Assembly: GCF_900221005.1 (NCBI RefSeq)
Contig: NZ_OBQI01000002.1
Coordinates: 744,001-808,000, forward strand
Length of the DNA: 64,000 bases
Direction of reading: 5' to 3'
Source of the DNA: Blastococcus aggregatus
Lineage (GTDB): Bacteria; Actinomycetota; Actinomycetes; Mycobacteriales; Geodermatophilaceae
In this document: in pieces, positions 47,691-50,944 of the stretch
Layout of the letters: every line of letters begins with the position of its first letter
Numbering within the stretch: the stretch's first letter is position 1
Notes under the pieces: model-generated
What the model saw: the letters and a program-made list of their open reading frames with translations, nothing else
Told to the model about the DNA's origin: nothing
The model's database searches: none
Translations under genes and position numbers: made by a program

Positions 47691-48635
47691 TCAGCCCGCC
47701 AGCGCCGGCGCCGCGCGCACGGCACCCACGATCCCCTCGCCTCCGGACAGCGGGAGCTGCAACCACGGCGCGAGCACGTCGGCCAGCACCCCGAGCCGGA
47801 GCAGGCCCGCGGTCAGCGCGGGCATCCGCCCGCGGTCGCCGCCGTCGTCGAGCTTGAGCGCCACCGCGCCCGCCCCGGGCAGCGCGGCGACGTGCACGCC
47901 GTCGGCGCCGCCCTTGACCAGCAGGCCGGGGACGGCGCGCATCAGGTCGGTGTCCTCGCGGCCGGTGCCCGCCACGAACCAGGGCTGGGCGCGCATGGCG
48001 TCGGCGACCGCGCGCTCCGGGGAGCCGGCGTCGGCCTGCACCAGGGAGAGGACACCGCGGGCCAGGCCGGTCGGCGAGAGCGCGTGCTGCGGCGCACCGC
48101 AGCCGTCGACGACGACGGCCGTCACCGGCTCACCCGCCGCCTCGCCCAGCCGCGCGTCGATCGCCTGCTGCAGCGGGTGCGCGCGGTCGAGGTAGCCCTC
48201 GACCGGCCAGCCGGCCGCCACGCACGCGGCGAGCATCGCCGCGTGCTTGCCCGAGCAGTTCATCACCAGCCGGTCGGGCGCGCGGCCCTCGACCAGCCAG
48301 GCCGCCCGCGTCGCCTCGTGCGAGGGCAGCGCCGGCGGGCAGCCCAGGTGCTCGGGCCCGAGCCCGGCGGCGGCGAGGATCGCCGCCGCGAGCTCCCGGT
48401 GCCCGTCCTCGCCGTTGTGCGAGCCGGCCCCGATCGCCAGCTCGGCCTCGTCGCGCGGCGCCCAGCCGGCGGCGAGCAGCGCCGTCGCCTGCACGGGCTT
48501 GTTCGACGAGCGCGGCAGCATCGGCCGGTCCACGGCGCCCGCGCCGAAGCGCACGTCCCCGTCCGCGCCGAGCACGACCAGGGAGCCGCGGTGCACCGAC
48601 TCGAGGAACCCGGACCGCTCGACCTCGACCAGCAC
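47691..48635 (-). CDS. L-asparaginase II-type protein
   Basis: 314 residues. The family pattern is LVEVERSGFLESVHRGSLVVL, PMLPRSSNKPVQATALLAAG (catalytic SSNKP region), GAGSHNGEDGHRELAAAIL and LVMNCSGKHAAMLAACVAAG. This is the Rhizobium-type asparaginase (AnsA/AsnA II, PF06089), unrelated to the E. coli enzymes. Hydrolyses asparagine to aspartate and ammonia. The GTG start was chosen; no strong ribosome site. It is 32 bp after the RsiG-like gene on the same strand. Confidence 0.9.
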   Translation of the reverse strand: MLVEVERSGFLESVHRGSLVVLGADGDVRFGAGAVDRPMLPRSSNKPVQATALLAAGWAPRDEAELAIGAGSHNGEDGHRELAAAILAAAGLGPEHLGCPPALPSHEATRAAWLVEGRAPDRLVMNCSGKHAAMLAACVAAGWPVEGYLDRAHPLQQAIDARLGEAAGEPVTAVVVDGCGAPQHALSPTGLARGVLSLVQADAGSPERAVADAMRAQPWFVAGTGREDTDLMRAVPGLLVKGGADGVHVAALPGAGAVALKLDDGGDRGRMPALTAGLLRLGVLADVLAPWLQLPLSGGEGIVGAVRAAPALAG

Positions 48636-48667: not shown

Positions 48668-49228
48668 TCAGTGCCGGCCCTCGTCGGCCAGCAGCGCCGC
48701 GACGTCGGCCTCGCCGTCGCGGTAGCGGCGACCCAGCTCCCCGGCGAGCGCATCCATGACCTGCTGGACGCCGCGCCGCCGCTCGGAGAGGCCGACCTCG
48801 GCCTCGGCGAGCGCGCGGGCGCCCTGCTCGAGCTTGGCGTCGGGGAGGTCGGTGATCGAGGAGAGGTCGACCCCGGGGGTCAGCGCGTTCACCCAGGACT
48901 CGTACTCGTCGGGGTTGGCCGGCTGCACCGTCTGGTGGCGCCCGAGACCGTGCGCCGGGCCGCGGCCCTTCTCGGACAGGATCTCCGGGAGCAGCTCGAC
49001 CAGCGACCGGCCGTCGTGCTCGGCCCGGCGCTGCACCTCGCGGCGCACGATGTCCAGCCGGCCCTGCAGCAGCCGCCGCGTGTAGGAGAGGTTGACCTCC
49101 TCCTGCTCGGCCTGGCGGCGCAGCGAGCGCACCTCGGTCATCGACCGCCGGGTCGCGTCCTCGAGGAACGCGGGGTCCAGCAGCGCGTCGACGGCGGCGC
49201 CCCCCGCGGGACTGGTCTTGGTGCTCAC
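48668..49228 (-). CDS. rsiG: RsiG-like c-di-GMP-binding anti-sigma factor (WhiG/FliA antagonist)
   Basis: 186-residue, mostly helical protein. It has two exact copies of the c-di-GMP-binding signature E-x3-S-x2-R-x3-Q-x3-D: EVNLSYTRRLLQGRLD (E44, S48, R51, Q55, D59) and EVGLSERRRGVQQVMD (E144, S148, R151, Q155, D159), 100 residues apart. In Streptomyces RsiG two such helices form an antiparallel coiled coil that binds a c-di-GMP dimer and sequesters the sigma factor WhiG. The GTG start has GAGGAGA upstream; a longer frame is not conserved. The sigma partner is not in this window. In motile relatives it would govern flagellar sigma activity. Confidence 0.88.
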   Translation of the reverse strand: MSTKTSPAGGAAVDALLDPAFLEDATRRSMTEVRSLRRQAEQEEVNLSYTRRLLQGRLDIVRREVQRRAEHDGRSLVELLPEILSEKGRGPAHGLGRHQTVQPANPDEYESWVNALTPGVDLSSITDLPDAKLEQGARALAEAEVGLSERRRGVQQVMDALAGELGRRYRDGEADVAALLADEGRH

Positions 49229-49331: not shown

Positions 49332-50453
49332 TCACGCACGCGGCATGGTCGCAGACCGGACGGCTCGGATGCGGTCGCGCGCCGCCGCCCGGGTGTCGTC
49401 GACCTCCGCGGGGGCGTCGTCCGGATCGATCGCGGCGACCGATCCGCCCACGGTCAGCGCGGCGTCGGGAGCGACCGACTGCTTCACCAGCGCCAGCGCG
49501 ATCACGCCGAGCTCGTGGTGCCGCACGACCGTGCCGACCCGGCCCACCTCGCGGGCGCCGGCGAGCACCGGGGCGCCGGGCTCGGTGAGGTCCTCGCTGA
49601 CGCCGTCCAGGTGCAGCAGCACCAGCCGGCGCGGCGGCCGACCCAGGTTGTGCACCCGGGCGACGGTCTCCTGCCCGCGGTAGCAGCCCTTGTCCAGGTG
49701 CACCGCGCTGGTCAGCCACTCCAGCTCGTTGGGGATGGTGCGGTGGTCGCTGTCGGCGCCCAGCCGCGGCCGGCGGGCCTCCACGCGCAGCGCCTCGTAG
49801 GCCTGCACCCCCGCGAGCCGGGCCCCGGCGGTCAGCAGCCGGTCGGCGACGGCGTCGACCGAGCCGCGCGGCACGACCAGGTCCACGACGACGGCGCTGC
49901 CGTCGCCGATCGGGCGCATCCGGCGGGCGAACCCGCCGTCGGCCAGCGGCTCCACCGCGTACTCGACGGCGGGCGCGGGCAGGCCGGCGGCGCCCAGCAC
50001 GTCGAGCGCGCTCGGCCCCACCAGCGAGAGGACGGCCCACTGCGCCGTCACCAGCTCCGGCTCGACGCGGAGCATGAAGCGCATCTTCTGCAGGAAGGCG
50101 TGCAGTGCGACACCCGTGCCGGGCTCGACGTCGGCCCAGGTGGTGCCGCCGAGCTCGGCGATCACCAGGTGGTGCTCGACGTGCCCCTGCGGGGAGAGGA
50201 CCAGCGCCTCGCTGCCGGTGGCGTCGGCCAGCCGGTCGAGGTGCTGGCTGGTGAGGCTGTGCAGCCAGGAGAGCCGGTCGGCGCCGGGGACGACGAGCAC
50301 GTCCCGGTCGCTGCGGTCCACCAGCCCGGCGCCCTCGGCGAGCAGCCGCTGCTCGCGCAGCGGGTCCCCGTAGTGGGCGGCCACCGCGACGGCGGCGTCC
50401 ACCGGCTTCTCGACGGCGACGGCGCCCGGGCGGGACAGCAGGGTGGAACTCAT
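49332..50453 (-). CDS. ygfZ: YgfZ/GcvT-domain folate-binding protein
   Basis: 373 residues. It is related to aminomethyltransferase, with the YgfZ-specific tag HLDKGCYRGQETVARVHNLG (K-G-C-Y-x-G-Q-E). It has DRDVLVVPGADRLSWLHSLTSQHL in the N-terminal domain. YgfZ supports the assembly or repair of Fe-S enzymes with tetrahydrofolate. The ATG overlaps the Fur gene stop (ATGA), which links it to metal regulation. The Fur-YgfZ pair is frequent in actinobacteria. Confidence 0.92.
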   Translation of the reverse strand: MSSTLLSRPGAVAVEKPVDAAVAVAAHYGDPLREQRLLAEGAGLVDRSDRDVLVVPGADRLSWLHSLTSQHLDRLADATGSEALVLSPQGHVEHHLVIAELGGTTWADVEPGTGVALHAFLQKMRFMLRVEPELVTAQWAVLSLVGPSALDVLGAAGLPAPAVEYAVEPLADGGFARRMRPIGDGSAVVVDLVVPRGSVDAVADRLLTAGARLAGVQAYEALRVEARRPRLGADSDHRTIPNELEWLTSAVHLDKGCYRGQETVARVHNLGRPPRRLVLLHLDGVSEDLTEPGAPVLAGAREVGRVGTVVRHHELGVIALALVKQSVAPDAALTVGGSVAAIDPDDAPAEVDDTRAAARDRIRAVRSATMPRA

Positions 50454-50944
50454 GGGGTCTCCGATGCTCGTTCGCGGCATGCGCGGCACGTCCCGGACAG
50501 GGCGACGTGCCCCACGTCCACGGTGAAACCCAGATCGGCGGCCAGACGTTCCGCCGCGCTGTCCAGCAGGTCGGGGGCGACCGAGGAGATCTCGCCGCAG
50601 GAGGCGCACACCACGTGCAGGTGGGCGTGCTCGGAGGCGTGGTAGATCGGCGCCCCCTTGCCCAGGTGGGTGTGCCACACCAGGCCCAGCCGCTCGAGCA
50701 GCTCCAGGTTGCGGTAGACCGTGGAGGCGTCCGGCGCGGGGGACCCGGGCCCGGCCTCCTCGCGCAGCCACGCCCCGATCGCCTCGGGCGTCGCGTGCTC
50801 CAGAGCCTCCACGGCCGCCAGCACGCGGCGGCGCTGGGCCGTCAGGCGCAGCCCGCGGGACCGCAGCCGCTCGGCCAGCGGTGCCGCGTCGCCGGCGGTG
50901 CGGCCCGCGCTGCCACCCTCGACCGCATGGCCCTCGTGCTCCAT
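50450..50944 (-). CDS. Fur-family metalloregulator
   Basis: 164 residues. The winged HTH is LAERLRSRGLRLTAQRRRVLAAV and ATPEAIGAWL with DASTVYRNLELLERLGLV. The metal-binding and dimerisation domain has HASEHAHLHVVCASCGEI, then CRACR. The two CxxC pairs are the structural Zn site, and HxH residues form the regulatory site. It could be Fur, Zur or PerR-like; the residues seen do not settle it. TAGGGT lies 6 bases before the ATG, hence leaderless. The divergent IR at 50982-51005 may be its operator. Confidence 0.9.
   Translation of the reverse strand: MEHEGHAVEGGSAGRTAGDAAPLAERLRSRGLRLTAQRRRVLAAVEALEHATPEAIGAWLREEAGPGSPAPDASTVYRNLELLERLGLVWHTHLGKGAPIYHASEHAHLHVVCASCGEISSVAPDLLDSAAERLAADLGFTVDVGHVALSGTCRACRERASETP

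Follow-up and report, generated by a model that had tools for sequence, protein, structure and literature searches.

A twin-motif RsiG of Geodermatophilaceae, its likely WhiG partner, and candidate sigma-28-type sites before flagellar and GGDEF genes

The rsiG locus and its product

The window analyzed here is a stretch of 64,000 nucleotides (C8:744001-808000) of the 4.62-Mb genome of Blastococcus aggregatus. It contains an open reading frame of 186 aa, read from the sequence with a GTG start and an AGGAG five bases upstream of it, that very probably encodes RsiG, an already described protein. The features of the locus are collected in Table 1.

Table 1. Features of the rsiG locus (positions in the window).
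Feature	Position	Strand	Evidence or remark
rsiG	48668..49228	-	PF22802 E 1.6e-25; PDB 6pfj_T E 3.7e-22; Foldseek
Motif 1, residues 44-59 (E44, S48, R51, Q55, D59)	49052..49099	-	translation; predicted helix 30-72
Motif 2, residues 144-159 (E144, S148, R151, Q155, D159)	48752..48799	-	translation; predicted helix 130-170
ygfZ (CAF17-like protein), upstream of rsiG	49332..50474	-	TIGR03317 E 5.2e-29; context, not part of the switch
L-asparaginase II family gene, 32 bp downstream of rsiG	47691..48635	-	PF06089 E 1.1e-100; context only

The protein carries two motifs, EVNLSYTRRLLQGRLD and EVGLSERRRGVQQVMD, which begin at residues 44 and 144, respectively, and are thus exactly 100 residues apart. 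According to the translation, both are exact copies of E-x3-S-x2-R-x3-Q-x3-D, and the protein thereby shows the twin arrangement defined by two E-x3-S-x2-R-x3-[Q/H]-x3-D motifs. The motifs and their spacing are as claimed in the sequence-only reading. Among 100,000 shuffles of its residues, 60 contained at least one motif and none contained two. Both motifs, always spaced by 100 residues, are found in 40 out of 40 proteins (39 relatives and the window protein), all of them close relatives from one family, the Geodermatophilaceae.

The identification as RsiG, which the sequence-only reading had called RsiG-like, is supported by three types of comparison. Pfam family PF22802 (RsiG) matches with 89 bits against a cut-off of 27; NCBIfam yields a single match, far below its cut-off. 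Using phmmer against the PDB, RsiG of Streptomyces venezuelae (6pfj_T) is matched over residues 7-181, and three shorter RsiG sequences (7lq2-7lq4), which belong to the Rubrobacter RsiG structures (Schumacher et al., 2021; PMC8325347, cited here and below from part of its text), are matched over motif 1. The AlphaFold2 model (22 sequences, mean pLDDT of 81.3) predicts two long motif-bearing helices packed in an antiparallel coiled coil, as expected for RsiG and in line with the earlier placement of the motifs on helices; a predicted fold lacking such a coiled coil would have counted against the sequence-only reading. The pLDDT falls below 50 at residues 1-3 and 86-98. The latter stretch, by our inferred mapping, may correspond to the loop of S. 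venezuelae RsiG that reportedly becomes ordered through c-di-GMP and WhiG (PMC8325347). The top four Foldseek matches of the model, and the only ones with an E-value below 0.001, are RsiG chains of the S. venezuelae complex (6pfv/6pfj; E-values from 1.3e-4 to 3.9e-4), with a TMq of 0.56-0.59 and an rmsd of 5.7-5.8, indicating a likeness in overall fold and not in detail. Membership in the RsiG family is hence as well founded as sequence alone can make it.

The host genome contains a single rsiG copy. The 39 relatives come from Blastococcus, Geodermatophilus, Klenkia, Modestobacter, and other Geodermatophilaceae, the nearest being a Blastococcus protein with 96% identity. The neighborhood fur, ygfZ, rsiG, asparaginase, and XRE regulator is conserved among the 39 loci, some of which are short stretches: asparaginase, XRE, and ygfZ genes are each present in 38 and fur in 37 of them. 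The position of rsiG between ygfZ and the asparaginase gene, which had been regarded as unusual, is therefore ordinary for Geodermatophilaceae. The same applies to the presence of a twin-motif RsiG in this family: in the published survey, 134 RsiG homologs came from an initial search of 3,962 genomes, and the twin-motif form is reported for 16 out of 16 Geodermatophilaceae species (PMC8325347).

WhiG, a FliA-like protein and candidate promoter sites

One gene of the host genome (C8:43609-44535) encodes a FliA/WhiG match above the cut-off (279.4 bits), and it is the sole one. Its product is a WhiG equivalog (NF004935, 386.8 bits against a cut-off of 343) whose best PDB match is the sigma chain in the S. 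venezuelae complex structure (E 2.1e-91). A genome devoid of any WhiG/FliA homologue would have spoken against the sequence-only reading; here, a possible partner is present. Judged by eye, the neighbors of whiG are xerC-like and tsf-, pyrH-, and frr-like open reading frames. In S. venezuelae WhiG, residues K57, G61, and R62 touch c-di-GMP (PMC8325347). Host WhiG retains K, G, and R at these positions, as do all 32 WhiG loci examined (the host, the relative G071, and 30 of the 100 matches above the cut-off).

A second sigma-28-type protein (C4:521971-522969) is encoded in the flagellar cluster beside flagellin. This FliA-like protein scores 156 bits, below the FliA/WhiG cut-off, and has S, N, and A where WhiG has K, G, and R in both alignments made; an alternative gap placement could retain the R, but neither the K nor the G. 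The corresponding segment was found by pattern search in 13 of 21 flagellar loci, none of which has a K at that position. Since WhiG keeps the contact residues and the sigma factor of the flagellar cluster lacks them, WhiG is the likely partner of RsiG.

The flagellar cluster of the host also encodes a protein (L072:11248-12351, C4:516248-517351) that is about 360 aa long, matches sigma factors weakly, and has a conserved VFGGIPEADGW stretch. It is present in the flagellar stretches of 20 out of 20 relatives (one partial) and, with 59% identity, near whiG in G071 (L110:1501-2583). No Pfam match was found for it at an E-value of 0.01, and its NCBIfam sigma matches are weak.

At a spacing of 14-16, the host genome has no perfect match to the published flagellar consensus. 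With up to two mismatches, there were 15 matches against seven for a reversed-pattern control. Ten of the 15 lie inside called open reading frames, including L068, which is the site called L137 below and was counted as internal because the called frame extends upstream past the likely start. The published consensus was abandoned and the form seen before fliC was used instead. A FliA consensus of Actinoplanes was looked for in PMC13293333 and not found there.

The form TCAAG-N14-16-GCCG(A/T) occurs upstream of fliC in 19 of 21 genomes, where shuffles expect 0.016. This count is sensitive to which flagellin copy is chosen, two runs having taken different upstream stretches for L124 and L125. From the first base of the candidate site to the fliC start codon, the distance is 93-107 nt. 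In all 21 genomes, a related site faces the operon that diverges from fliA and, by eye, looks like flgN-flgK-flgL; this count allowed TTGA or TCAA as -35 and had no shuffle control. The fliA gene itself is preceded by a candidate site in 10 of the 21. In relatives, TCAAG-N15-GCCGWA is also matched at places other than fliC. The window contains a single match to TCAAG-N14-16-GCCGW where 0.48 are expected, and we claim nothing for it. An additional sigma-28-type site (L073:13488-13512, C4:538488) is located directly before a flbD-like open reading frame (by eye), upstream of a motA-like one. Its -10 overlaps a possible ATG; it may therefore be a coding coincidence.

The host genome has 34 GGDEF matches. 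We scored TCAAG plus GCCGWWA, requiring at least 11 of 12 positions and a spacer of 14-16. From -200 to +400 of the 34 GGDEF open frames, four frames reach 11 (shuffled mean 0.095), and the full surroundings of the 34 matches (141 kb; 135 kb without overlaps) contain five sites scoring at least 11 (L133, L136, L137, L143, and L159). In each of the five, the first -10 base lies 14-20 nt before a start codon that opens a GGDEF-containing frame, making them near-leaderless candidate promoters. The L133 start is uncertain because about 280 codons of the longest open frame precede the site, and the L137 site was known before the scoring pattern was fixed. Paralogs account for three of the five genes. 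Read from stretches that end soon after GGDEF, three encode a GGDEF domain together with the beginning of an EAL domain, one a GAF-GGDEF protein, and one GGDEF alone.

The same scoring form matches four times in the 60-kb flagellar region and once in 504 kb of non-flagellar control DNA (400 kb taken from across the genome together with the window and the 40 kb surrounding whiG), the latter match not being so placed before a start. At this control rate, which rests on one match, P is about 1e-5 for at least five matches and 0.003 for at least three. The comparison is less favorable with a first-order Markov model, which was built on 164 kb from the host and expects 1.83 matches per 164 kb and 1.6 in 141 kb, giving the GGDEF stretches a P of 0.02 for at least five and 0.21 for at least three matches; this model expects 5.6 matches in the 504-kb control, where one is seen.

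Co-occurrence with flagella and the pilus operon of a relative

Among 112 Geodermatophilaceae genomes, in which WhiG was counted only above the cut-off, 100 have WhiG, 100 have RsiG, and 100 have FlhA. All three are present in 97 genomes (one of them also with PilM), none in 10, and five are mixed. The mixed genomes are all less than 90% complete: two have RsiG and FlhA without WhiG, one has WhiG alone, one has WhiG and FlhA without RsiG, and one has WhiG, RsiG, and PilM without FlhA. Of the 96 genomes with at least 90% completeness and at most 5% contamination, 92 have all three and the other four have none of them. We should note that the latter four fall in two genera (g6 and g7), and that the joint absence may reflect few loss events.

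Type IV pili were considered as a Rubrobacter-like target in the host and rejected, as the host has no PilM match. Such a match is found in only two of the 112 genomes, G071 and G101. The latter (L112) also has FlhA, WhiG, and RsiG. G071 (C255; 74% complete, no FlhA match) encodes a divergent RsiG of 165 aa within L109:3188-7951, with F and E replacing Q and D in the second motif. Its gene lies between two T2SSE ATPase genes (pilT- and pilB-like), overlapping the second by four bases, with a PilM gene nearby. This placement may stem from mis-binning or horizontal transfer. Allowing up to three mismatches, the WhiG site matches 15 times in the pilus operon against 4.7 and 4.9 in two shuffles; many of these matches are inside called genes, and the gap between pilM and pilT has weak ones only.

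The proposed switch and its relation to known systems

By homology, we consider it quite probable that the host rsiG encodes a protein that, armed by c-di-GMP, holds WhiG inactive; this estimate covers the switch itself and not its regulon. RsiG would fold as a coiled coil of two antiparallel helices, and its two motifs would hold c-di-GMP as a dimer. When c-di-GMP is high, this armed form would bind sigma-WhiG and keep it from RNA polymerase, and WhiG would be released once c-di-GMP falls. The output is less certain. It might comprise the late flagellar genes (fliC, fliA, and the operon that diverges from fliA) as well as about five GGDEF genes with near-leaderless sites, which would close a feedback loop. 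The co-occurrence and the candidate sites together suggest that flagella are gated by c-di-GMP, with feedback, and we offer as a hypothesis that swimming genes and some c-di-GMP enzymes may be under the RsiG switch.

In its full form, the proposal is that RsiG takes the role of FlgM in motile Geodermatophilaceae, with c-di-GMP instead of flagellar export gating sigma-28. Low c-di-GMP would then free WhiG to express fliA, late flagellar genes, and near-leaderless cyclase/phosphodiesterase genes, rewriting its own signal, and the switch would have come to lie within a type IV pilus operon in one relative that has no FlhA match. Taken as a whole, we regard this chain as tentative and rather unlikely. 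The overall interpretation of the sequence-only reading is supported for the identity of RsiG and the presence of WhiG and not supported for the unusual position; its link to motility gains indirect support from the FlhA co-occurrence and the promoter-like sites, which the FliA-like sigma factor could also read.

It is possible, though less likely than not, that RsiG holds WhiG as in Streptomyces, that the flagellar and GGDEF sites belong to the FliA-like sigma factor, and that WhiG and RsiG control, e.g., budding, a rod/coccus change, or stress. The gene of the FliA-like protein lies in the flagellar cluster, adjoins flagellin, and has its own upstream site in the 10 genomes mentioned above; without the c-di-GMP contact residues, its product would escape the switch. 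Against such a division of labor, RsiG and WhiG are missing from just those of the 96 good genomes that lack FlhA, and WhiG is said to share the promoter specificity of flagellar sigma factors (PMC8325347), so that it could read the same sites. Binding of RsiG to the FliA-like protein instead of WhiG is very improbable: both sigma factors belong to the FliA/WhiG family (34% identity) and no FlgM-like protein is described, in the available text of a 2013 review, for the simple actinobacteria with WhiG that it surveyed (PMC4255298), but WhiG is the equivalog, and S, N, and A replace the contacting residues in the FliA-like protein. That the coiled coil resembles RsiG by chance or has lost its function is scarcely credible, with nothing in favor beyond the general risk with coiled coils and, against it, the nearly full-length match to a solved RsiG, the Pfam score far above the cut-off, the motif pair in all 40 proteins, and the exclusive Foldseek matches to RsiG chains.

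The protein itself is thus of a known kind; a switch on WhiG that may govern swimming genes and signal enzymes is the less expected hint. The candidate sites listed here point to genes that RsiG may control in a motile, unicellular actinobacterium. If the proposal is true, the RsiG-WhiG switch would rewrite its own c-di-GMP signal. A limited literature search found no publication on these sigma-28-type sites in Geodermatophilaceae.

FlgM-FliA is the enteric flagellar system, in which the anti-sigma factor FlgM is exported through the flagellum. The proposed switch shares with it the anti-sigma control of a sigma-28 factor and differs in that RsiG is armed by c-di-GMP. At the time of the 2013 review, WhiG had, according to the text available, not been analyzed in the motility of simple actinobacteria (PMC4255298). 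A 2026 paper, likewise cited from part of its text, describes a phosphodiesterase that antagonizes RsiG by binding WhiG (PMC13232838).

The (RsiG)2-(c-di-GMP)2-WhiG complex of Rubrobacter radiotolerans (7lq2-7lq4) shares the motif and comes from a unicellular actinobacterium. WhiG promoters are reported there before five DGC/PDE genes, similar to our proposal for the host (PMC8325347). Unlike the twin-motif host protein, Rubrobacter RsiG is a single-motif homodimer, and its reported target is type IV pili, with WhiG promoters in the pilus cluster (PMC8325347), for which the host lacks a PilM match. The RsiG-(c-di-GMP)2-WhiG complex of S. venezuelae (6pfj, 6pfv) corresponds to the host system in the twin motifs, in the similarity over residues 7-181, in the overall predicted fold, and in the WhiG equivalog encoded in the same genome. 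Streptomyces is non-motile and its switch serves sporulation (PMC8325347), whereas flagellar genes and a further sigma-28-type protein are present in the host.
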